From positions 250,001 to 314,000 of the IMG/VR virus record IMGVR_UViG_3300045970_000794: 64,000 nt of DNA; one strand, given 5' to 3'. Below the pieces are notes generated by a model. That model ran no database searches. It was not told the DNA's origin and saw nothing but the letters and a program-made list of their open reading frames with translations. This DNA comes from a virus. Shown in pieces: positions 460 to 53,317 of the stretch (the stretch's first letter is position 1; every line of letters starts with the position of its first letter). The position numbers and the translations under genes are program-made.

Positions 460-2244
460 TTATCTCATACCACTAAATAACCATAAGTAATCACCTTTAG
501 GGTCTTGCATATTCTTAGATACGATTGGTGTGAACTTAGGTTTATTCATTGGCGTTTTGCTACCTTTTGGAACAAAACCAGTATTATATTCATCAGTAGT
601 ATTTTTACCACCATTAACAACCCAGCTTTTTAGCATCGCCTTAGCTTGATTCTGGACTTTTTCTAAATTTTTAAATGAATGTTCTAACACCCATAATGCC
701 ATACCTAATGCCATTAATAAATCATCGTGATGACCTTTCATATGGTCTGGCCTACCGTCACGATAAACAAATGTTTTCATTTCGGATGTTAATCTGATTG
801 AACGTATTTTAACTAAATTCTGTCGGATGCTTTGTTCCAAATGCCCGATTAATGGTAAACGTATTGAATTTACTACTAAACCTGGTTTCTTATCATCATC
901 CATCACGTGTTTAGCCAAATCTTTTTGGTCTAATAATTTATTACGTTCACTATAATGGATATTTTTATATTTCACTTCAATCAACTTCAATACTGTTGAC
1001 ACACCCCAACCACCAGTAACGTCAACTACTACATATGCATTATACAATAACCCATACTCTTCAACTATTTTTGCTAATAAATCTGGTGGGACTTTACCAC
1101 GATATTCAGCTACTTCTTCCATTGTCGTAAAATCGATAATAACAAAAGTTGAAAAATCGTCACCACCACCACTGGATACGTCAACACCCATTATGTAACG
1201 ATGACCTTCAATTGGTTTTTCCCAAATCCAAATTTCTTTTTTAATACCAGATAGATATTGTGGTTCTTTGCAATTATTTTTAACGTGGAATTCAATAAAT
1301 TCATCATCAATAACCTGACCCCCAGAACCTAGAAATGATACATCTAATTCTTGAGCAATCATTCGTTTATCACCATTCATACCACGACACATTGCTTCGT
1401 ACCATGAAGAAGTTGGTTTATAACCCGTATCTAATTTACTTTTATAGCTTTCAAATGTGAATTCCATTTCAGTGATTACTTCCTCACCTTTTAACCATTT
1501 TAAATCAATATTATAACGGTTATCTTCATACCACTTCATTTCAACAACATTAAAGTCATTATCACCTTTTAGCGAACCATCATATGATTTCCAATACAAT
1601 TCATCGTAACCATTTGGTGTTGAAATTAATGTTGCTTTACCCCCAGTACCTAGCGATGTTAGTGCGGCTCCGAATACTTCATCACCATTATCAATAAACG
1701 CAGCTTCATCCATAACAAGATATGTAGGAGTAAAACCCCTCAACGCATCTTTAGATGTTGCAACCGCTTTGATTTCACATTTATTTGGTAACATTAATTT
1801 TCTATTGGAATCAACTAAGAATATTGATTTTGCTTCTTTTTCAGCATCACCATAATAATCTTCACCCCAAACCCATCTAGGTAATTGTAATAGAAAATCT
1901 TTAATTTTGGCCAAAAATTCTTCGGCCATATCTCTTTTATTTGCTAATATAAGTATTTTTTCTGGACTTTCATCACTAGCAAAACCAACTTTTATCGCTA
2001 AATAAGCCGCCGTTGTGGTTGAAACCCCAGCTTGTCTTGGTTTTGTTACTAAATTAAAACGATGTAATTCATACGCTTGAATTATTTGTCTTTGTCTTGG
2101 AAATAAATAGAATTGTACGAATCCACCCCTACCTTCATTATATGTTTTATCGAACGTCTTAAAATAAGTTTCGATAGCATACGTTGGATTCATCAAACAT
2201 TTAGCATATTCTTGTAATATTTCACCACTAGTTAAATTATTCAT
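460..2244 (-). CDS. terL: Terminase large subunit (DNA-packaging ATPase/nuclease)
   Basis: 594 residues, a normal length for T4 gp17-type terminases. The N-terminal ATPase has a Walker A-like loop KPRQAGVSTT near residues 68-77 and Walker B YLVMDEAAF with the acidic pair at 179-180, followed by a coupling-motif-like STPNG. The C-terminal RNase H-like nuclease shows GVDVSSGGGDD with the first acidic residue and a late HDDLLMALGMAL. In the family this protein docks on the portal, pumps DNA into the prohead and cuts the concatemer. The gene sits at the end of a minus-strand virion block, with a foreign-looking plus-strand HNH cassette directly upstream. Confidence 0.96.
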   Translation of the reverse strand: MNNLTSGEILQEYAKCLMNPTYAIETYFKTFDKTYNEGRGGFVQFYLFPRQRQIIQAYELHRFNLVTKPRQAGVSTTTAAYLAIKVGFASDESPEKILILANKRDMAEEFLAKIKDFLLQLPRWVWGEDYYGDAEKEAKSIFLVDSNRKLMLPNKCEIKAVATSKDALRGFTPTYLVMDEAAFIDNGDEVFGAALTSLGTGGKATLISTPNGYDELYWKSYDGSLKGDNDFNVVEMKWYEDNRYNIDLKWLKGEEVITEMEFTFESYKSKLDTGYKPTSSWYEAMCRGMNGDKRMIAQELDVSFLGSGGQVIDDEFIEFHVKNNCKEPQYLSGIKKEIWIWEKPIEGHRYIMGVDVSSGGGDDFSTFVIIDFTTMEEVAEYRGKVPPDLLAKIVEEYGLLYNAYVVVDVTGGWGVSTVLKLIEVKYKNIHYSERNKLLDQKDLAKHVMDDDKKPGLVVNSIRLPLIGHLEQSIRQNLVKIRSIRLTSEMKTFVYRDGRPDHMKGHHDDLLMALGMALWVLEHSFKNLEKVQNQAKAMLKSWVVNGGKNTTDEYNTGFVPKGSKTPMNKPKFTPIVSKNMQDPKGDYLWLFSGMR

Positions 2245-2760: not shown

Positions 2761-3363
2761 ATGAAAACTGAAAAACAACAAATTCAATCACAAGAATCAC
2801 AACATAAATATTACATGAAAAATTGTGAAATTATTAAAGTTAAAAAGAAAAAATATTATAATGATAATCGTGAAACTGAGATTAAACGTAAAAGTGAATA
2901 TCAAAAGAAAAATAAAGAAAAGGTAAATGAATATAATCGAAAATATCGTGAAACTGAAAAATATAAATTATGGAAAATAAATAATAAAGAGAAAAATAGG
3001 ATTAATGATAAATTATCTGAAAATAATCGTTTAAAACATAATGCTTTATATAAGTTAAAACACAATATTAGGTCTTTAATTAGAAATTCATTTAAAAATA
3101 AAGAATTTAATAAAAAATCTAAAACAACTGATATACTTGGTTGTTCATTCGAAGAATTTAAATTACATTTAGAATCTAAGTTTGAATCATGGATGAACTG
3201 GGATAATCGTGGCTTATATAATGGCACACCAAATTATGGTTGGGATATTGACCATATTATTGCTCTTGCAACTGCATTGAGTGAAAATGATATAATTAAA
3301 TTAAATCATTATACTAATTTACAACCGCTATGTAGTTATATAAATCGAGATGTTAAAAGGTAA
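2761..3363 (+). CDS. HNH homing endonuclease-like protein
   Basis: 200 residues. Residues 1-110 are very rich in Lys, Asn and Glu. The C-terminus carries an HNH core: WDIDHIIALATA followed by LNHYTNLQPLCSYINRDVKR, with the His and Asn residues expected for the beta-beta-alpha metal finger. It is clearly paralogous to the gene at 42100-42738 (same C-terminal core, same basic N-terminus). Its place next to terL, on the opposite strand, fits a free-standing homing endonuclease. Strong A/T codon bias suggests recent acquisition. Confidence 0.88.
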   Translation: MKTEKQQIQSQESQHKYYMKNCEIIKVKKKKYYNDNRETEIKRKSEYQKKNKEKVNEYNRKYRETEKYKLWKINNKEKNRINDKLSENNRLKHNALYKLKHNIRSLIRNSFKNKEFNKKSKTTDILGCSFEEFKLHLESKFESWMNWDNRGLYNGTPNYGWDIDHIIALATALSENDIIKLNHYTNLQPLCSYINRDVKR

Positions 3364-3423: not shown

Positions 3424-4173
3424 TTAGTACTTAAATGGCCAATTATCGGGGTCTCCTTGGGGTAATTTTGGGTCTACCATAGGGAATATAGTAAACTTAT
3501 CCACTGTATCCTTATCCGTCAATAAATTATAAAATAAATCATCACGACCATTATATGTTGATGACATAATCATTTGTCCACCACTTCTGAGTGAATTCGA
3601 TGCTACGTCAAACATTTCTGGGCCATTAATTAGGAATGCTGCATCTGAAATATAAACAATATCAGTCGTATAACCTCTAATTTCACCTGGGTTCACAACT
3701 GAAGTTATTGTACGACCACCAACACCAATAGATTTAATATTTTTATGTCTGAACTTTTCTTTATAATCATTAAAAAGATTATTCCGACTCATTAATATAT
3801 CGGCCATCATAGTGACTATCTGTATTAAATTATTACCAATAACTGATGTTGGTGAAATTATTATTACGTCATTACTATGATAATATGCTTGATAAATTAA
3901 ATAGACGCATACTATTAACCTTTCTCTGGTTCGTTGGTGCTTTGGTATTAGTATGTGCTTATTTGCCATTAGAAGGGTTAATAATACTAAATCTTGGTCA
4001 CCAAATTTATTAGATGATTTATCTAGTATTGTATTAAACTTATCTAATAAAAAATTAATACATTCATCCTTACCGATTGGTGTGAAAAATAATGCTGATA
4101 ATCTAATATTCTCAATAATTGTATCATTTAAAGTGATAAAACTATCGTTATTTAATTTTTCTAATAAATTCAT
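3424..4173 (-). CDS. Degenerate terminase-large-like ATPase domain (probably inactive)
   Basis: 249 residues that line up with the ATPase half of the TerL encoded just downstream. EIRGYTTDIVYISDAAFLIN here matches ALRGFTPTYLVMDEAAFIDN there, and both continue into a glycine-rich loop and S-T-x-NG. The site of the Walker A loop (PKHQRTRERL, residues 77-86) has no glycine or Lys-Ser/Thr, the Walker B Asp-Glu is Ser-Asp, and there is no nuclease domain. It is therefore most likely a non-hydrolysing paralogue, perhaps a structural partner of the motor. It could instead be a decaying duplicate, but the reading frame is fully intact. It lies 40 bp after a terminator. Confidence 0.75.
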   Translation of the reverse strand: MNLLEKLNNDSFITLNDTIIENIRLSALFFTPIGKDECINFLLDKFNTILDKSSNKFGDQDLVLLTLLMANKHILIPKHQRTRERLIVCVYLIYQAYYHSNDVIIISPTSVIGNNLIQIVTMMADILMSRNNLFNDYKEKFRHKNIKSIGVGGRTITSVVNPGEIRGYTTDIVYISDAAFLINGPEMFDVASNSLRSGGQMIMSSTYNGRDDLFYNLLTDKDTVDKFTIFPMVDPKLPQGDPDNWPFKY

Positions 4174-12084: not shown

Positions 12085-14607
12085 ATGGGTAACAGAGAAG
12101 TCGATTCTAAAGTTCAAGAAATTTTACAAAAAGCAATTGCAGAGGCTGACCAATATAATGACACTAAATTTAGGCCAGAGCATATCGTATTATCAATTAT
12201 TGATGATTCGAATAATGAATGTGTTAATATACTTAAAAATTTAGGTATTAATTTAGATAGTTTATATGATTTATTATTAAATTCTGTTAGTAATAATCAA
12301 ATAACACCACGTGTTGGACCTAAATATAATGGTAAAGCACCCCCAAGTGAATTAACTATTAAAGTATTAAATTTTGCTGATAAAGAAGCCGAATTAATGA
12401 ATGACACTAGTATTAATTTAAAACACATCATGTTAGGTATTTTAGATACTGATACACCAGTTACTAGACTCCTTAATGATTTGGATATAACAAGAACATC
12501 GTTTTACGAACAAATTAAAACACAAAATATGAGAGAAGATTATGATTTTGAGGATGATAACAATTCAAAAAAGAACATCCCACCAAGTAATAGGGTGAAA
12601 AAGAATTCTAAAACCCCAGTACTGGACAATTTCTGTAGGGATGTAACCAAAGCTGCTGAGGAAAAAACATTAGACCCAATTGTTGGTCGTGAAAAAGAAA
12701 TCCGTAGGGTTTCTCAAATTCTTTCTCGTAGAAAGAAAAACAATCCAGTTCTTATCGGTGAACCTGGTGTTGGTAAAACTGCATTAGTTGAAGGATTAGC
12801 ACAATTAATCGTTGATGGTAAAGCACCTAGAATTTTATTAGATAAACGAGTTTGTACATTAGATTTATCAGCATTGGTTGCTGGTACAAAATATCGTGGT
12901 CAATTCGAAGAAAGAATGAAAGCTTTATTAAACGAATTGGAGACTAATCCAGATGTAATTATTTTTATTGATGAATTACACACTATTATTGGTGCTGGTA
13001 ATGCTTCTGGTTCGCTGGATGCTTCCAACATTTTTAAACCAGCTTTAGCCAGAGGTGAAATACAAATCATTGGTGCTACTACATTAGATGAATATCGTGA
13101 GAATATTGAAAAAGATGGTGCACTTACTCGTAGATTTCAACAAGTATTAATTGAAGAGCCTACTTTATTGGAAACCAAAACTATTCTTATGAATGTTAAA
13201 TGTAAGTACGAAGACCATCATAAAGTAATTTATACTGAAGAAGCTATTGATGAATGCGTTAAATTGGCTGAAAGATATATTACCGACCGTGCTATGCCAG
13301 ATAAAGCTTTGGATGTTATGGACGAAGCTGGTGCATCTACCAATGTTACTGTTGAAATCCCAGAAATCATTAAAGAATTGGATGAAAAGAAAAAAGCCAT
13401 TCAACAAAAGAAAATGGAAGTTGTTAGAGCTCAGAAATATGAAGAAGCTGCTAAATTAAGGGATGATGAAGGAAAATTGGATGTTGAAATAAAGGCTGCT
13501 AAAGATGCTTGGATTAAACGATTGGATAATAAGAAAACAATTGTTGATGGTGATTTAGTTGCTGAGACAATTTCAATGATGACTGGAATTCCATTAAATA
13601 AAATTTCCAATAAAGAAAATAAAAGGTTACTTCAAATGGAAAGTGAACTCACTAATAAAATCATTGGTCAGAATGAAGCTGTGAGTAAAATTTCTAAAGC
13701 AATTAAACGTAATCGACTTGGAATTAAAGATAAAAATAAGCCAATTGGTTCATTTATATTTCTTGGGCCTACTGGTGTTGGTAAAACATTTTTAGCTAAA
13801 ATGTTAGCCGAATACGTATTTGGTGATACAGATGCATTGGTTCGTATCGATATGAGTGAGTATATGGAAAAACATTCCGTATCTAGATTAATCGGTGCTC
13901 CTCCAGGTTACGTTGGTTATGAACAAGGTGGTCAATTAACTGAGAAAGTTAGAAGAAAACCATACTGTGTAATACTTTTCGATGAAATTGAAAAAGCTCA
14001 TGATGATGTTTTTAATATCATGCTTCAATTATTAGATGAAGGTCAATTAACTGATAGTTTAGGTCGTAAAGTTAATTTTAAAAATACATTAATCATTATG
14101 ACTTCTAATATTGGGGTCAAAGATGCCAATGAATTCGGTGCTGGTATTGGATTTGATACTAAAGCTGGTGGTATTGTTGATGATGATAGAATGCGTTCAA
14201 TCGTTGAAAAAGCGTTGAAAAAGAAATTCAAACCAGAATTCCTTAATCGTTTAGATGATATCGTTACCTTCAATACATTAACCCGTGAAGACATTAGTAA
14301 AATCATTGTAAATGAATTAGGTCGTTTAACTCTTCGTATTAATGAAATCGGTCATGATGTAAAATACAGTAAAGAAGCTGTTGAACATTTAGCTACGATT
14401 GGTTACGATGTTAATTATGGTGCTAGACCATTAGCTAGAGCCATTCAGAAATATGTTGAAGACCCAGTATGTGAGGAAATTCTATCAGATAACATTAAAA
14501 AAGGTGACCAAATCAAAGTTACTTTTGATAAAAAAACTGAAACTCTATTGATTAAAGGTGTTAAAGCTAAATCGGCTGATGTATCAGAACCAGAATCTGT
14601 TGAGTAA
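12085..14607 (+). CDS. clpC: ClpC/ClpA-family AAA+ unfoldase
   Basis: 840 residues with full family layout: Clp N-domain repeats (1-145), first AAA+ module with Walker A GEPGVGKT near 225 and Walker [15 protein letters not shown], a UVR-like middle helix pair ([20 protein letters not shown]), and a second AAA+ module with GPTGVGKT near 561 and [11 protein letters not shown]. An IGF tripeptide near 688, in the position of the ClpP-docking loop, suggests it delivers substrates to a ClpP peptidase. No phage clpP is in the window, so the partner would be the host ClpP. It has its own promoter and terminator. Confidence 0.95.
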
Positions 14608-27312: not shown

Positions 27313-27343
27313 TTGTTTATTAAAATTATTATTTATATCTTTG
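27313..27343 (+). promoter_or_regulatory. Promoter of the envelope/transport operon
   Basis: TTG at 27313-27315, 20 bp, TATCTTTG at 27336-27343, 34 bp before the first ATG of the operon at 27378. Confidence 0.87.
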
Positions 27344-27377
27344 CAGTTCAAATTGTAAAACTAAATTATTAAAATTT

Positions 27378-28091
27378 ATGGGATTCCTACAAAAATTAGG
27401 TCTGGTTGAAGAAACCGAACCTGTGGTAGAAGAAACTACCGAACAAATACCTTCAGAAACAAAAACTGTTGTGGCTAAAACTGAAGTAAAACAAACCACA
27501 CCTAAAAAATCAACTCTATCTTTTGCTCCATCAACTACAACATCATCAATTGGTGGTGCTATCGTTGGTAAAGTTAATAGCGACATATATGATAAGTTGT
27601 CAGTTGCTATTGAAGAAAACAATTTAGATGGTAATGATTTCTTAGAATTCATGCAGTCATTAACTAAAATGGCTAATCTTGTTGTTGATGAAAAAACCAA
27701 ATATAATATGGTTTTCGCAACATTAACTACTTCATCTGGTGGTATGACTTTAGACCATTTGATTGATTCTATCTCACATTATATTAATGTGATTAACAAT
27801 GAAAAATCTACATTTAAATCTGAAATGCAGAATGCATCCGCTGAAATGGTTGGTGAAAAAGAAAAAGCTGTTGAAACATTAACTAAAACTGCTCAAGAAA
27901 AAGCCGACCTTATCCAAAAATTAACCCAAGAAATTCAAGAAATTAATGGTGATATTAATACGCTTAAATCTGAATCCGAAGAATCGAAAGTTGTTATCGC
28001 TCAGAAAGAAGCTGATTTTGATGTTACCGTTAAACAATTAGAATCTCAAATTCTTGAGTTTAAAGATAAAATCGTTCAACATATCAAATAA
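27378..28091 (+). CDS. Cytosolic coiled-coil protein, first gene of envelope/transport operon
   Basis: 237 residues, no signal peptide. A Glu/Thr/Pro-rich linker (20-60) leads to a helical domain (about 70-145) and then an 85-residue coiled coil (EKAVETLTKTAQEKADLIQK). It lies 34 bp upstream of the membrane-anchored helical protein, and the two coiled coils could pair. I do not recognise the family. Helical proteins next to OmpA-fused binding proteins are known from TelA/XpaC-type clusters in Bacteroidetes, but I cannot show homology. Confidence 0.8.
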   Translation: MGFLQKLGLVEETEPVVEETTEQIPSETKTVVAKTEVKQTTPKKSTLSFAPSTTTSSIGGAIVGKVNSDIYDKLSVAIEENNLDGNDFLEFMQSLTKMANLVVDEKTKYNMVFATLTTSSGGMTLDHLIDSISHYINVINNEKSTFKSEMQNASAEMVGEKEKAVETLTKTAQEKADLIQKLTQEIQEINGDINTLKSESEESKVVIAQKEADFDVTVKQLESQILEFKDKIVQHIK

Positions 28092-28125
28092 TTAAATAAA
28101 TTAAATAACTTAAAAAAAAGTAAAA

Positions 28126-29133
28126 ATGGAAAACAGTTTAGAACAAGGTGTGAAAAAGTTTTTCGACAAACCAGAAGGTAAAGTTGGAAAAGGATTTCTA
28201 GTATTAATTGGATTAGGTCTTTTATTTGTATTATACAAAGCATTACCTTATATCCTAATTTTATTAACAAATACATTGCATGCGATGTTATTGTTAGGTG
28301 CAATTCTTTTAATTATCTTTCTTGTAACCAACAAAAAGGTTCAAATGTTATTCTCATTTGGATTTCAAATGGTAATGAGGTGGATTACTGGGGTTTTTGT
28401 TGAATTAAATCCTATTGCGATTATCAGAATTCATATTGAAAATCTAAAACATAATCATAGTGCTATGGATGTTCACATTGGTGCGTTAGGTGGTGAAATA
28501 CGTGGACTTGAAGCTAAGATTAAAGATAATAAACAAAACATCGAAAAAAGTCTAAGAATAGCATCTTCAGCTAAAGAAAGCGACCAAAAAGGTCAAGCTT
28601 GGATTGAAGCTAGAAAAGCTGGTCGTAGAAAAGATGGTACTATTAAACTAACTGATTTATTAACTAAGCTTAAAAAAATCTATGATGTTTTAACTAAAAT
28701 GTATGAAATTTCTGGTTTCGTTATCGAAGATTTGGAAGATGACGTTCAAAATAGAGAAACTGAATATATTTCTATTAAAAAAGCCCATGCCGCTTTAATG
28801 TCTTCAATGTCAATCATTAAAGGTAACCCTAATGAAAGAGCTATGTTTGAATTAGCATTAGAAAAAATGGAAGAAGAAATTTCAACCAAACTTGGAACCA
28901 TGGACAGATTTATGGATATGTCAGCTAATTTAGTTGCTGGTATTGATATCGAACAAGGTATCTTCGCAGAAGATGGTATGCTTATGTTAGAAGAATACGA
29001 AAAAGGTGGTTTTGATGCTTTCTTAAATGATTTCGGTAAAATGCCTTCTGGTAATAACGTTGATGAAAATGAATCATTAAAGTCTACTGGTATTAAACCA
29101 TTGAAGAAAAATGCTGACGGTAAATATTTCTAA
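28126..29133 (+). CDS. Inner-membrane helical protein of envelope/transport operon
   Basis: 335 residues. Two adjacent membrane helices (about 24-43 FLVLIGLGLLFVLYKALPYI and 48-68) are followed by a long cytosolic helical domain with PspA-like heptads (IGALGGEIRGLEAKIKDNKQ). No cleavable signal. It probably forms a membrane-bound scaffold beside the transporter. Function is inferred from topology and operon. Confidence 0.8.
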   Translation: MENSLEQGVKKFFDKPEGKVGKGFLVLIGLGLLFVLYKALPYILILLTNTLHAMLLLGAILLIIFLVTNKKVQMLFSFGFQMVMRWITGVFVELNPIAIIRIHIENLKHNHSAMDVHIGALGGEIRGLEAKIKDNKQNIEKSLRIASSAKESDQKGQAWIEARKAGRRKDGTIKLTDLLTKLKKIYDVLTKMYEISGFVIEDLEDDVQNRETEYISIKKAHAALMSSMSIIKGNPNERAMFELALEKMEEEISTKLGTMDRFMDMSANLVAGIDIEQGIFAEDGMLMLEEYEKGGFDAFLNDFGKMPSGNNVDENESLKSTGIKPLKKNADGKYF

Positions 29134-29161
29134 TAATTTAAACTTAAATAAAAATAAAACT

Positions 29162-29962
29162 ATGCAATATTTTAAAAGAAGATTCAAAACAAAGCGATTT
29201 ATAGTACTTATCGCATTAACTACTGGGTTAATTGTATTCCTATCGCTTACATCATCAGCACAGGAAGCTAAATTCCCAATCAAAGCTGATTCAACTATCG
29301 TTGATACAGTTAAAAAAGAATGCCTAAAACCAAGCTTATTCGGTAGCGGTATGCTTGTTAGTCAACACGTTTGGCGTGGAGTTTTACTCGATAGTAAACC
29401 AAATATTCAACCAAATATCGGTGTTGGTATCGGTGGTTTTGAATTTGGTGCATTTGGAACCGTTAGTTTCTTTAATGACTATTCTGAAGTAGATGTTTAT
29501 GCATCATATACTTATAAATCATTTAAGTTAATGGTAACAGATTTCTACATTGATTTAGGTGGTTCATCAAAGTCTCAAGATTATTTCGACTATTCTGATA
29601 CTGCTGGATATCATCACGTAATGTGTGATTTAATATTTATCGGTAGTGAAGCGATACCAGTTAGAGTTACTGCGTCAACTATGTTACATAGTGGATGGGA
29701 TGTAGACTCTCTAAATAAACCTAAATTCACAACATATTTAGAAGCTAGATACTTACGTAATGATTTCGAATTCTTTGTTGGTGGGATAACTGGTCAAAGT
29801 GATTTCTACCTTAACAAAAACAATGGATTTAATATAATTAATGTGGGTGCCGCATACAATTATCATTTAAGATTCAATGAAATTGAGATTCCATTATCCA
29901 CTCAATTGTGTGTTAATCCTCAATTGCAGAAAGCTTACCTAACTTTTTTAGTAATTTTTTAA
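29162..29962 (+). CDS. Outer-membrane beta-barrel protein
   Basis: 266 residues from the ATG at 29162, chosen because the longer frame lies inside the upstream gene and the short form has a clean signal peptide (RFIVLIALTTGLIVFLSL, cleavage near SSAQ). The mature part begins SLFGSGMLVSQHVWRGVLLD and continues with alternating aromatic strands (YASYTYKSFKLMVTDFYIDL), like TorF-type putative porins. A phage-encoded outer-membrane channel within a transport operon is unusual. It ends 20 bp before the internal operator and promoter. Confidence 0.82.
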   Translation: MQYFKRRFKTKRFIVLIALTTGLIVFLSLTSSAQEAKFPIKADSTIVDTVKKECLKPSLFGSGMLVSQHVWRGVLLDSKPNIQPNIGVGIGGFEFGAFGTVSFFNDYSEVDVYASYTYKSFKLMVTDFYIDLGGSSKSQDYFDYSDTAGYHHVMCDLIFIGSEAIPVRVTASTMLHSGWDVDSLNKPKFTTYLEARYLRNDFEFFVGGITGQSDFYLNKNNGFNIINVGAAYNYHLRFNEIEIPLSTQLCVNPQLQKAYLTFLVIF

Positions 29963-29981
29963 AAAAAAAGTGTTAAAAGAT

Positions 29982-30012
29982 TTGGAGAATAGAAATATTC
30001 TCCGTATCTTTG
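29982..30012 (+). promoter_or_regulatory. Internal promoter with embedded operator-like inverted repeat
   Basis: TTG (29982-29984), 20 bp, TATCTTTG (30005-30012). The spacer is a 20-bp inverted repeat, GGAGAATAGAAATATTCTCC (29984-30003), starting on the G of TTG. The same repeat in the same register occurs at 42978-42997. It could be a repressor site or, as RNA, a GAAA-loop hairpin ending the upstream message. Confidence 0.82.
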
Positions 30013-30065
30013 CACTTCAGAATTAAACTAAAATGTTTTTTATTAACAATTAAAATTTTAAAACT

Positions 30066-31595
30066 ATGAGTAACACAATGTTAACAGTTAAAAAACCAGG
30101 TGGTATTACAACCCGTGGTAAAATCGTAATCGCAACTTTATTTGTTGGATTACTTGCAATCCTTTATTTCTCGTTCAGAGATAAAATTACTAAATTCGCT
30201 GGTGGTGCAACTAGTGGTGATGTGATTAAAATTGGCGTTGTTACATGGCCAGGTTATATCGGCGGTGAATACATGAACAACGGTTTTGCACCAAATATGG
30301 AATGCCGTTTCTATAAAGAATATGGTATTCAAGTTGAATTTAAAGTTCTTAACGATTTCTTAGCATCTAGAAAAGCTTTCGAATCTGGTGAAGTTGACCT
30401 TTTATGGTGTACTGCCGATGCTTTCCCAACTGAAATGGGTAGAGAAGGTACAATGGCTTTAAGTAATCCTAAATTCCTTTTCCAATCTGACTGGAGCCGT
30501 GGTGGTGATGCGATTGTTGTTGATATGTCTATCGATAAAATTTCTGACCTTAAAGGTAAAACTGTAGCTGTTGCTGAAGGAACTCCTAGTCACTCATTCC
30601 TTATTAACTTACTTAAAGCTAATAACATGACATTATCCGATATTGATGTGAAATCAGTACCAAGTGCTGTTGACGCTGCCGATGTTTTTAAACAAGGTGC
30701 ATGTGTAGCCTCAGTTGTATGGTCACCAGATGATATCGATTGTCTTAAAAAAGTTTCTGGTTCTAAAGTTTTAGCCTCTACTAAAGAAGCAACATATATT
30801 ATTGCCGATGGTTTTATTGCTAAAGACGAATATATTAAAAAGAACATTGAAAAATTACAAAAGCTTTACGATGGTTGGATGGTCGGTGCTGCTGAAATTA
30901 ATGCAAATAAAGATGGTGCTAGAAATAAAGCCGCAAAAATATTAGCCGATAATTTCCAAATGACTGAAAAAGATGCGTTAGCTTCACTTGATAACGTTAG
31001 ATTAGCCAATCACGGTGATAATAAAAATTTCTTCGGTCTTGGTGAATCAAATTGCGTAACTGGTGATATGTTATACACTACTATGTCTGGTGAATATCAA
31101 AAAATTAAAAAAGTTGAAAATCCTTTAATGTGGAGAGAAGTATCTGACGCAGTATTAGTTAAAGCATCAACCTTAACTGGTAACGGCCAATTAGCTGAAG
31201 TTAGTAAGAAATTTACCCCAGCTGGTTCAGATGTTAAAGAACGTAAAGCTTATTCTACTAAGAAAGTAACTATCAACTTCCCAAGTGGTTCTTATGCATT
31301 AACTGGTGAAGCTAAAGCTAAAATCAATAGAGAATACTCTGAAATTGCTAAAACCAATGGTGGTGCTAGAATTAGAGTAGAAGGAAATACTGATAACTCA
31401 GGTAATCCTAACTTTAACCAAACACTTTCTTATAATAGAGCTAAAGCTGTTGCAGAATATTTAACAAATCAATTTGGATTTGACTTCAATAGGTTCATTG
31501 TAATTGGAAATGGTTCTAAGCATGCAATAGATGCTGGTTCAAAAGGTGATGATGAAAATTATAGAACTACAGATTTCGGATTAATAAAAGAGTAA
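30066..31595 (+). CDS. Inner-membrane-anchored solute-binding protein fused to OmpA domain
   Basis: 509 residues. An uncleaved N-terminal anchor (IVIATLFVGLLAILYF, about 21-36) leads to a periplasmic type 2 binding domain of the NitT/TauT class (IKIGVVTWPGYIGGEYMNNG, EVDLLWCTADAFP, LKGKTVAVAEGTPSHSFLIN). After residue 400 comes an OmpA-like peptidoglycan-binding domain (VEGNTDNSGNPNFNQTLSYN then RAKAVAEYL, keeping the Asp and Arg that grip diaminopimelate). It would capture a small anion or amine and stay bound to both membrane and cell wall. The ligand cannot be told from sequence. It has its own promoter and operator. Confidence 0.92.
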   Translation: MSNTMLTVKKPGGITTRGKIVIATLFVGLLAILYFSFRDKITKFAGGATSGDVIKIGVVTWPGYIGGEYMNNGFAPNMECRFYKEYGIQVEFKVLNDFLASRKAFESGEVDLLWCTADAFPTEMGREGTMALSNPKFLFQSDWSRGGDAIVVDMSIDKISDLKGKTVAVAEGTPSHSFLINLLKANNMTLSDIDVKSVPSAVDAADVFKQGACVASVVWSPDDIDCLKKVSGSKVLASTKEATYIIADGFIAKDEYIKKNIEKLQKLYDGWMVGAAEINANKDGARNKAAKILADNFQMTEKDALASLDNVRLANHGDNKNFFGLGESNCVTGDMLYTTMSGEYQKIKKVENPLMWREVSDAVLVKASTLTGNGQLAEVSKKFTPAGSDVKERKAYSTKKVTINFPSGSYALTGEAKAKINREYSEIAKTNGGARIRVEGNTDNSGNPNFNQTLSYNRAKAVAEYLTNQFGFDFNRFIVIGNGSKHAIDAGSKGDDENYRTTDFGLIKE

Positions 31596-31612
31596 CAATC
31601 ATTAACTAAATG

Positions 31613-31645
31613 AAAAAGCACCTAAAATTTTGGGTGCTTTTTTTA
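31613..31645 (+). terminator. Terminator inside the operon
   Basis: Stem AAAGCACC with GGTGCTTT and a T7 run, between the binding-protein gene and the permease gene. It would make permease and ATPase transcripts less abundant than the binding protein. Confidence 0.85.
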
Positions 31646-31656
31646 AAAACTTTAAT

Positions 31657-32619
31657 ATGGAAACATTCAAATCCCTTTTTAAATTAGGTGGAACAATCTC
31701 TAATAGATTATCTACCATTGTTGGAGTCTTAGGATTCGTATTCTTAATGGCTGTTTGGTATATTATTACCAGTGCAACTGGTTGGGTTAAACCTCAAACA
31801 ATTCCAAGCCCAAATAGTGTTCTATTCGCTTTTGTTGAAATGTTTTCAAAAGACCAGTTTTTACTTATGGTCTGGAAACCGTTATTGCTTTTAATTGGTA
31901 TTATTATTACATTATATTTCATACCATTCACAAAATTTTTAGTTAATTACGCCATTAGTGCTCTATTAATTTTATTCGCAATTTACCTTTTGATGGGTAA
32001 TTTCATAATGAAAGATGCACCAATTTCAATGAATATCTTATATTCACTACAACTAAATGTCGCTGGATATCTTAAAGCAATATTAATATCGATACCAATC
32101 GGATTCTTAATCGCATTATTCCCTTTACTAAGAAGTATGTTCAGTAAATATATCGATGCAATTAGATATGTTCCATTAACTGGTCTTATCGGTGTGTTCA
32201 TCGCATGGTTCGGAATCGCTTCTGGTATGAAAATTAATTTCCTAGCTTTTGGTATCATCGTATACCTATTACCTATCGTTGTTCAACGTGTTTATGAAAC
32301 TGAAAAAATTCACTTAGATACTATATTCACACTAGGTGCTAATAGCTGGCAAACGTTCCGTAAAATATACTGGCCATCCGTTATTTCTAAACTAATAACT
32401 GATATTAGAGTTATCACTGCAATATCTTGGACCTATATAATCGTAGCTGAAATGGCTAACAATGAAGGCGGTCTTGGTGGATTTGTATATACTTGCGCTA
32501 GACAAAGTAGATTGGATAAAATATTTGCTGTAATCCTTATTATCGTTATAATTGGATTCTTACAAGACATTCTATTCAAATGGTTAGATAAAAAAATTAA
32601 TAAATTTAAATACGTATAA
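31657..32619 (+). CDS. ABC transporter permease, NitT/TauT type
   Basis: 320 residues from the ATG at 31657, chosen because the longer frame begins inside the terminator. It has a membrane helix at 20-40, then an extra hydrophobic pair (about 75-125) not normally present in TauC/SsuC, then a complete BPD-type core ending in the EAA-like loop TLGANSWQTFRKIYWPSV that docks the ATPase. It would form the channel for the OmpA-fused binding protein. Two bases separate it from the ATPase gene. Confidence 0.92.
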   Translation: METFKSLFKLGGTISNRLSTIVGVLGFVFLMAVWYIITSATGWVKPQTIPSPNSVLFAFVEMFSKDQFLLMVWKPLLLLIGIIITLYFIPFTKFLVNYAISALLILFAIYLLMGNFIMKDAPISMNILYSLQLNVAGYLKAILISIPIGFLIALFPLLRSMFSKYIDAIRYVPLTGLIGVFIAWFGIASGMKINFLAFGIIVYLLPIVVQRVYETEKIHLDTIFTLGANSWQTFRKIYWPSVISKLITDIRVITAISWTYIIVAEMANNEGGLGGFVYTCARQSRLDKIFAVILIIVIIGFLQDILFKWLDKKINKFKYV

Positions 32620-32621
32620 TC

Positions 32622-33530
32622 ATGGGTTATTTCGATTCAAAAAAAGATACTAAAGTAATTAGTGATATCGTTAGAGGTACTAGCGAAGAACCAACCGTTA
32701 AAGCCAAAACAATTAAATTTGATGAGTCAAAATATGACCCAATTGATAAAATTCAATTGAAGAATATCAATCAAGTTTATACTGATAAAAATGGTAATAA
32801 AAATGTTGTATTCAATGACTTTGACCTTGATATTAAAGATATTAAAGGTGGTGGTCAGTTCACAGTTATTGTCGGTGCCAGCGGTTGTGGTAAATCTACA
32901 TTGCTAAGATATATTGCTGGTCTTCAAAAACCAACATCTGGTGAAATATACCTTAATGGTAATCTAAGAACTAATAATGATAGAGTTGGTATGGTTTTCC
33001 AACAATACTCTTCAATGACATGGGCTACAGTACTTGAAAATGTTGCATTACCATTGCAGTTAAAAGGTGTTTCTAAAGCTGAAAGAGAAGAACAAGCTAT
33101 GGAAATGATTAAAATCGTTAACCTTGAAGGTCATGAAAATAAATTCGCACAATATCCAATCCTTAGTGGTGGTCAATTACAACGTGTAGCTATTGCTAGA
33201 AGCTTAATGGCTAATAGTGAAATGCTATTACTTGATGAACCATTCGGTGCCTTAGATATTAATACTAGATTGAGAATGCAAGATATGCTAATCGATATCT
33301 GGTCCAAAGTTAAAGGTGACCCAACATTCATTTTTGTTACCCACGATTTATCCGAAGCGGTTTATCTTGCTGATGAGATTTATGTGTTAAAGGCTAACCC
33401 AGGTGAAGTGTGTGAATTCATCGAAATTGATATCCCGATGAAAAGAACTTCAGCAATCAAAAGGACTCCAAAATTTATGGAATATGTTCACCACCTTGAA
33501 GATTTAATGATGAAGATTAATATCAAATAA
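32622..33530 (+). CDS. ABC transporter ATPase, NitT/TauT type
   Basis: 302 residues. A 45-residue N-terminal extension precedes a complete nucleotide-binding domain: Walker A VGASGCGKST near 87, Q-loop FQQYSSMTWA, signature LSGGQLQRVAIARS, Walker B MLLLDEPFGALD and the switch His in FVTHDLSEAV. All catalytic residues are present, so the importer should be active. Last recognisable member of the operon. Confidence 0.95.
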   Translation: MGYFDSKKDTKVISDIVRGTSEEPTVKAKTIKFDESKYDPIDKIQLKNINQVYTDKNGNKNVVFNDFDLDIKDIKGGGQFTVIVGASGCGKSTLLRYIAGLQKPTSGEIYLNGNLRTNNDRVGMVFQQYSSMTWATVLENVALPLQLKGVSKAEREEQAMEMIKIVNLEGHENKFAQYPILSGGQLQRVAIARSLMANSEMLLLDEPFGALDINTRLRMQDMLIDIWSKVKGDPTFIFVTHDLSEAVYLADEIYVLKANPGEVCEFIEIDIPMKRTSAIKRTPKFMEYVHHLEDLMMKINIK

Positions 33531-42099: not shown

Positions 42100-42738
42100 A
42101 TGCCATATAAAGATAAAGATAAAGAAAAACAATACCAAAAGGAATACAGAGAAAAGAATAAAGAATATTTCGAAGAATATCGAAAAATACATAAATATAA
42201 AAATAATAAATCGTATCAGGAATATAGTGAAAATAATAAAGAATCGTCCAAAAAATATTATAAAACTAAGGATAAAATTGTATTACAAAAAAAAGAATAT
42301 TATGAAAATAATAAAGAAAAATTAAAGCAATCTCAAAAGGAATGGCGAGAAAATAATAAAGATTATACGAATAAAATTGCTCGTAATAAATATAAAACAG
42401 ACCCATTATTTAAACTTAAACGAAGTATAAGGCGTATAATTGCTTTCAGTCTTAAAAATAAAGGACTCAAAAAAACCAGTAGAGCACACCTTATTTTAGG
42501 CTGTTCTTTTAATGATTTTAAAACTCATATTGAATCGAAATTTGAATATTGGATGACTTGGGATAACTATGGTTTATATAACGGTACGTTAAATTATGGA
42601 TGGGATATTGACCACATTATACCATTAGCAACGGCAATAAATGAAGATGAAGTGATTAGATTAAATCATTATACTAATTTGCGACCATTATGTAGTCATA
42701 TTAATCGGGTAATAAAACGTAATAAAATTGTGTATTAG
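42100..42738 (+). CDS. HNH homing endonuclease-like protein
   Basis: 212 residues, paralogue of the gene at 2761. Lys/Glu/Asn/Tyr-rich N-terminal half, then ILGCSFNDFKTHIESKFEYW, WDIDHIIPLATA and LNHYTNLRPLCSHINR with the HNH residues. It overlaps the convergent 69-residue gene by four bases. Probably mobile. Confidence 0.88.
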   Translation: MPYKDKDKEKQYQKEYREKNKEYFEEYRKIHKYKNNKSYQEYSENNKESSKKYYKTKDKIVLQKKEYYENNKEKLKQSQKEWRENNKDYTNKIARNKYKTDPLFKLKRSIRRIIAFSLKNKGLKKTSRAHLILGCSFNDFKTHIESKFEYWMTWDNYGLYNGTLNYGWDIDHIIPLATAINEDEVIRLNHYTNLRPLCSHINRVIKRNKIVY

Positions 42739-52850: not shown

Positions 52851-52927
52851 ATAGCAAATTAAAATATTTTGAAAATAATTCACTTTTTATTTGGTAGATT
52901 AAATTATTTTCACTACCTTTGTATTGT

Positions 52928-53030
52928 CATTAAGACGTGACGATACCCACAACGGTCTCGGAAGGTATACTCCAACATGCAATGTTGTCGGTGGAACACT
53001 CCAATATGCCCGCTATTTTCCTATGGGGAA
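52928..53030 (+). ncRNA. Candidate small RNA R2
   Basis: A class B promoter (TTG 52891-52893, 20 bp, TACCTTTG 52914-52921) leads into TGTCATTA-AGAC and AGGTATACTCCAAC, both shared with R1, then a second GGTGGAACACTCCA-like copy. The end is probably the hairpin around 53014-53030 (ATTTTCC/GGGGAAAT). No open frame of note. Confidence 0.55.
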
Positions 53031-53034
53031 ATAT

Positions 53035-53065
53035 TTGGAATTGTAAATTATTATTTGTAAGTTTG
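53035..53065 (+). promoter_or_regulatory. Promoter of ncRNA R3
   Basis: TTG 53035-53037, 20 bp, TAAGTTTG 53058-53065. Confidence 0.7.
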
Positions 53066-53070
53066 CATAT

Positions 53071-53187
53071 GATTTAAATGGGACTGCGGTCCCACTGAAT
53101 TTGCTCGCTCATTAAATAAATGGGTTAGCCTTGCCATTCCTATTACTGAATATATCAGCGATACGGATTCCTATACCCATTTTTTTG
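53071..53187 (+). ncRNA. Candidate small RNA R3
   Basis: A near-perfect hairpin TGGGAC-TGCG-GTCCCA (53079-53094), a linker, then a long terminal stem closed by AAATGGGT/ACCCATTT (53118-53125 with 53175-53182), containing CTGA-ATATA-TCAG, and a T7 run. The layout of promoter, 5' hairpin and Rho-independent end is that of a bacterial sRNA. No acceptable open frame. Confidence 0.58.
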
Positions 53188-53269
53188 CGAATTTGGGCAT
53201 CGGCATAGCTATTTCCAAAAATTTCTGGCGAAAAATATTAACAAAAATTTTTGCACAAGTCCGATTCCT

Positions 53270-53317
53270 ATTAGAATATACTATGGAATCTACTGTGGAA
53301 TATACTATGGAATATAT
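53270..53317 (+). repeat. 12-bp tandem repeat
   Basis: About four copies of TATGGAATATAC (one degenerate). The stretch 53190-53650 otherwise contains no gene I can support; a frame reading YGIY repeats across it has no start codon. Confidence 0.65.

Follow-up and report, generated by a model that had tools for sequence, protein, structure and literature searches.

The virus record IMGVR_UViG_3300045970_000794 (362,102 bp) carries, within the 64,000-nucleotide stretch analysed here (the window), an operon at 27378-33530 on the plus strand that consists of a five-gene core and a lineage-specific barrel gene. The core encodes, in order, a coiled-coil protein, a PspA-like membrane protein, a substrate-binding protein fused to an OmpA domain (SBP-OmpA), an ABC permease and an ABC ATPase (coil-psp-sbp-perm-atp). 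Its identity as the phage version of a bacterial operon, in which a PspA/Snf7 protein with a transmembrane (TM) segment accompanies an ABC importer and a PBP-OmpA protein, is well supported by sequence comparison. The five-gene core, an order shared by phages and bacteria, an intact importer and the PspA/IM30 kinship of the second gene are all evident at the sequence level.

Gene content and integrity of the operon

All six reading frames are open and free of internal stops in an ORF check of the window, and every gene is under purifying selection relative to its closest relative, L008 (NG86 dN 0.13-0.32, against a dS that is saturated at 1.4-2.5). A gene for the terminase large subunit (4e-49) lies at window positions 652-2148 of the same record. 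The sequence-only reading had described six consecutive plus-strand genes and would have been refuted by decay or host flanks, and it holds: stops are absent, the Pfam domains score above gathering thresholds, the ATPase motifs are complete, and selection and the terminase speak against decay and host flanks. Its six-gene unit stands in so far as all six genes are real and phage-borne, but the barrel is no conserved member.

TAnnTTTG is the -7 box consensus of Bacteroidota promoters. A box of this type, TATCTTTGC, at 27336..27344 (+), 34 nt upstream of gene 1, is the likely operon promoter for host RNA polymerase, and a second TATCTTTGC at 30005..30013 (+), 53 nt upstream of gene 4, is a possible internal promoter. 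In the window, TANNTTTGC is enriched, with 41 occurrences versus 18.9 expected from shuffles.

Gene 1 (27378..28091, +) encodes a coiled-coil protein of 237 aa, described here by its profile and its AF2 model, in which the N-terminus is disordered and bears a short hydrophobic motif, followed by a small helical domain (68-118) and a long helix (125-235), the helices having a pLDDT of about 90 or more. Searches of Pfam, PHROG, PDB and folds gave no match beyond coiled coils. Its profile recovers a gene at the same position in the phage set and in most bacterial loci, adjoining gene 2 almost everywhere, and its product is predicted to be cytosolic.

Gene 2 (28126..29133, +) encodes a PspA/IM30/Snf7-like protein of 335 aa, assigned from PF04012 matches of its relatives, Foldseek and a TM scan, with two N-terminal TM helices followed by a long helical hairpin and two more helices (AF2 helices 96-151, 155-230, 235-272 and 279-303). 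The window protein has no Pfam match above cut-offs and, like gp247 of phage G, does not reach E 0.01 against PF04012, so its PspA kinship rests on its relatives. The positional counterpart in the gut phage MT835556 matches PF04012 (PspA_IM30) at 7.8e-11, with 42.4 bits against a gathering score of 33.9, and four of five Firmicutes-type members match this family. In a PDB search, the Firmicutes-type (A5) profile ranks Vipp1, PspA and IM30 chains at the top (2e-4 to 2e-3). When whole virus records were scanned with PF04012, six of eight gave a single match, each inside gene 2 of the operon; G015 exceeded the gathering cut-off and the other five matching records were sub-threshold (the match in G013, at 52888-53295, falls within gene 2 of L009). 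In comparisons of one group's profiles with another's, gene 2 of the other group ranked first (E 1e-5, probability 81-82), and an hhalign control gave the gene 1 coiled-coil alignment a probability of 5 against the PspA-type alignment, compared with 82 for gene 2.

The AF2 model of gene 2 (mean pLDDT 72, above 93 in the hairpin, pTM 0.49) places the hairpin and the further helices in an ESCRT-III arrangement. Its best Foldseek matches in the PDB are Vipp1, PspA and eukaryotic ESCRT-III, with Vipp1 or CHMP1B at ranks 1-8; against the Vipp1 hairpin 6zvs the TM-score is 0.86, and against E. coli PspA 1-144 it is 0.75. Foldseek E-values are 0.02 at best, which is modest for helical proteins, so the fold match is supporting rather than decisive. 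Together, the PF04012 matches, profiles, group comparisons and AF2 fold make gene 2 very probably a relative of PspA and ESCRT-III. The role of this protein, given as unknown from the sequence alone, can now be described as PspA/ESCRT-III-like, which shifts the emphasis away from nutrient uptake and onto maintaining or remodelling the membrane. PspA is named for its induction by phage; no genes for PspF, PspB or PspC, as in the classical Psp response, were seen in the operon neighbourhood.

Gene 3 encodes an accessory outer-membrane beta-barrel, distantly Gcw_chp-like through its profile relatives. Its start is more likely the in-frame ATG at 29162 (29162..29962, +) than the opening of the ORF at 29111, since the L008 homologue begins there. 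Gene 3 itself has no Pfam match. A search with its profile recovered relatives from 87 of 198 Bacteroidota genomes, the alignments spanning roughly residues 76-283, and one of these relatives (L145) matches PF09694, Gcw_chp, at 1.1e-7. Within the phage set the barrel is present only in the window and L008, which rules it out as a core gene; the "full importer with its own outer-membrane channel" of the sequence-only reading is not a conserved design, as the channel is limited to the window phage and one relative. In three of the four bacterial loci inspected, all best matches, the barrel relative adjoins an Amt ammonium transporter gene. These three Bacteroidota barrels (L145, L146 and L147), directly beside Amt, may represent an outer-membrane partner in ammonium uptake that has yet to be characterised.

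Genes 4 to 6 encode the importer. Gene 4 (30066..31595, +) is the SBP with a C-terminal OmpA domain; its OmpA (7.7e-16) and NMT1/SsuA domains exceed Pfam gathering scores and the TM scan predicts a single N-terminal TM helix (19-37). Its PDB relatives among binding proteins are SsuA and TauA, and its SBP profile is nearest to urea and sulfonate binders. Gene 5 (31630..32619, +), which may start at the ATG at 31657, is a permease of the TauC/SsuC type (BPD_transp_1 7.3e-17, TauC model 2e-18) with the EAA-like loop DTIFTLGANSWQ. Gene 6 (32622..33530, +) is an ATPase of the TauB/SsuB type (ABC_tran 6e-29, TauB model 5e-58) in which Walker A, signature, Walker B and H-loop are intact; the BPD_transp_1 and ABC_tran scores are likewise above gathering cut-offs. 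A type-I permease with an EAA loop beside an ATPase with the full motif set is the make-up of NitT/TauT-type importers, and the predicted phage-borne ABC importer with envelope-spanning parts and every catalytic motif is confirmed by the Pfam and motif checks. SBP, permease and ATPase all score far below NCBIfam equivalog cut-offs. Gene 4 matches PHROG 25518 almost end to end, and the PHROG families to which the SBP-OmpA and permease proteins belong have no function assigned.

The window permease, at 329 aa, is longer than the roughly 265 aa seen in most phages; additional hydrophobic stretches lie around residues 77-121, and its alignment with L008 contains 55 gap columns. An opposite-strand ORF (L008 8515-9159, -) is inserted between the SBP and permease genes of L008; it has relatives (44-46%) in two window ORFs, 2761-3363 and 42100-42738, that resemble HNH-type mobile endonucleases, and the L008 operon tolerates the insertion. 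Elsewhere the window encodes a full-length ClpB/ClpA-like AAA+ disaggregase (12085-14607, +), a CDF cation efflux protein (60645-61562, -; TIGR01297 above cut-off) and a partial second terminase-like ATPase fragment (3424-4173, -), 1.2 kb from the full terminase gene.

Distribution in phages and bacteria

Profiles from the six proteins recover the core genes in the order coil-psp-sbp-perm-atp in about 22 distinct phage sequences, and a terminase was found in 17 of the 22 records searched. Among the sequences with the core order are Lak phages (540 kb), a phage of 735 kb and some ten IMG/VR contigs of 216-452 kb; Bacillus phage G, the related L016 and gut phages have a reordered form, perm-(atp)-coil-psp-sbp. 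The conserved order in other huge phages that the sequence-only reading anticipated is therefore present, and its idea survived the check it had set itself, namely that the order might be absent from related phages. In the cultured isolate phage G the set corresponds to gp243-gp250, with tandem SBP-OmpA genes (gp249 and gp250; L002 9414-12619) and a changed OmpA Asp. A second short ABC ATPase-like ORF follows the operon in Lak-B4 (L007 15021-15326). A related ATPase is absent from several gut-phage contigs, which are fragments. In two further sequences (L014 and L015) SBP, permease and ATPase are present, but the upstream ORFs are unrelated to genes 1 and 2, and both were left out of the gene 2 alignment. 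The Acinetobacter 'phage' MD-2021a records were discarded as an ordinary chromosomal urea-type ABC locus.

Bacillus, the host of phage G, has no outer membrane, and yet this phage has the set, which the envelope span first proposed does not cover. The Asp and Arg of the OmpA domain, which we take to be its peptidoglycan-binding residues, are kept in Bacteroidota-type phages; the Asp is replaced in phage G and Firmicutes-type phages, so that peptidoglycan binding may differ there.

A genome scan with the SBP yielded 427 relatives, and the best 80 of these belong mostly to Bacteroidota (Tenacibaculum, Aquimarina, Saprospiraceae), along with Spirochaetes, Fibrobacter and Caldithrix. In most of these best 80 loci the five-gene operon is chromosomal and in the same order. 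Gene 2 is present in 10 of 248 sampled Bacteroidota genomes (about 4%). An AAA+ ATPase lies directly downstream in 17 of the 47 bacterial loci with room for it; a search of the window record and further virus records for this partner found only a distant relative in phage G, 260 kb from the operon.

The closest importer genes outside phages are those of the Bacteroidia MAG L043, with 54-66% identity to the window proteins. A quick tree built from the importer proteins mixes phage and bacterial branches, with at least four changes between phage and bacterium; this speaks against a recent single transfer from bacteria and indicates that exchange was repeated and not recent. With respect to L043, we do not claim that gene 2 and the importer differ in origin, because the gene 2 tree does not reject a grouping of the window, L008 and L043 (p-AU 0.29).

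Proposed role and alternatives

Our preferred explanation, to which we give about an even chance, is that the operon couples maintenance of the envelope to uptake of a solute, a membrane-anchored PspA-type polymer lying beside a wall-clamped importer. The N-terminal helix of SBP-OmpA would anchor it in the inner membrane while its OmpA domain clamps to peptidoglycan, and the protein would hand a small solute of the sulfonate, taurine, nitrate or urea class to the TauC/TauB-like importer. Gene 2, held by its two TM helices, may polymerise on the cytosolic face in the manner of PspA/Vipp1 and stabilise or reshape the membrane around the importer, with gene 1 as its putative cytosolic partner. 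In the window lineage, the added Gcw_chp-type barrel would raise the permeability of the outer membrane to the solute. Phages probably use the operon to keep the host envelope working during infection; over the long infections of huge phages, the inner membrane would be kept tight and supplied while the cell is remade. Nutrient uptake during infection, the role first proposed, retains the backing of an intact ABC importer, but the centre moves towards membrane maintenance through the PspA-like gene 2. Counting against the preferred explanation, the phage operon lacks the AAA+ partner, the presumed driver of the bacterial polymer.

It is highly improbable that the operon is host sequence from a chimeric assembly or the remnant of a decaying prophage. 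It does occur on bacterial chromosomes, and its nearest non-phage importer genes are bacterial, but the divergence of these from the window proteins, the lack of stops and the purifying selection all stand against this origin, and its recurrence in about 22 phage sequences, in the isolate phage G and in complete Lak genomes, together with the terminase genes, led us to reject host contamination. A plain auxiliary-metabolism importer for a nitrogen or sulfur compound, with the PspA-like protein as a passenger or a quality-control factor for the overproduced membrane proteins, is rather unlikely: the TauABC/SsuABC-like set is complete, and both the ligand class nearest to the SBP profile and the Amt neighbours of the barrel family would suit it, in its favour. 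Most of the phages have no porin, however, and genes 1 and 2 stay with the importer even where the phages and bacteria have diverged widely, which disfavours a passenger role.

The operon could also be the virus's own membrane-remodelling machine, serving vesicles, a replication compartment or protection from superinfection or from defences that attack the membrane, with SBP-OmpA and the ABC proteins as energiser, sensor or tether instead of importer. We consider this quite unlikely. In its favour are a membrane-anchored ESCRT-III-type protein, the occurrence of the module for the most part in huge phages, G and Lak among them, and, in several ATPases, a changed residue following the Walker A lysine-serine/threonine; on the other hand, the ATPase catalytic motifs and the permease coupling loop are retained, and the operon is also chromosomal in bacteria without phage context. 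A broader proposal, which we consider unlikely, is that huge phages, whether their hosts are Gram-negative or Gram-positive, encode a membrane-anchored ESCRT-III/PspA-type machine that runs with no cellular AAA+ partner, its energising or sensing role falling to a wall-tethered ABC ATPase coupled to it; the machine would protect or reshape the host's inner membrane during infection and not merely feed the cell.

Phages of unrelated lineages and hosts carry their own PspA/ESCRT-III-type protein in an operon with a wall-tethered importer. An uncharacterised bacterial operon also gains a second, divergent set of examples, and because one of these is in the cultured Bacillus phage G (gp243-gp250), a link between remodelling and transport that has so far existed on paper becomes testable by plaque assay.

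Relation to known systems

The system, first put forward as the best candidate for an undescribed one, is not undescribed, since Ravi et al. 2024 (PMC11237479) reported bacterial operons in which PspA or Snf7 homologues with a TM segment occur with an AAA+ ATPase, an ABC ATPase, a permease and PBP-OmpA. They proposed membrane remodelling linked to solute transport, a similar reading to ours, and the AAA+ ATPase accompanies their operon in some but not all cases. Phages carrying the operon are not mentioned there, nor in the accessible papers on Lak phages and huge-phage ATPases; the reachable literature, which mostly excludes subscription papers and so leaves an earlier mention possible, gave no description of it in phages.

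The phage operon brings together the same protein types as that of Ravi et al. (TM-bearing PspA/Snf7 protein, ABC ATPase, permease and PBP-OmpA), and the Bacteroidota order is also coil-psp-sbp-perm-atp. It differs in being phage-borne, in lacking AAA+ within the operon, in the extra barrel of the window lineage and, for the phage G group, in gene order. The Jug phages (preprint, PMC12363816), huge phages whose hosts belong to the Bacteroides group, likewise encode a PspA-type protein, but their pspA-like gene is described only beside terD, with no mention of ABC or OmpA genes. Gene 2 shares the long helical hairpin and following helices of PspA/IM30/Vipp1 (PF04012), along with profile and fold matches, but members of its family carry one or two TM helices at the N-terminus, replacing the amphipathic helix 0. 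The barrel is joined to the Gcw_chp family (PF09694) through its relatives and is unusual in its placement beside an ABC importer. Finally, permease and ATPase match the TauC and TauB models and the SBP matches SsuA and TauA structures, as in TauABC/SsuABC importers, but unlike these the phage SBP is membrane-anchored and fused to OmpA, and the scores fall below the NCBIfam equivalog cut-offs.
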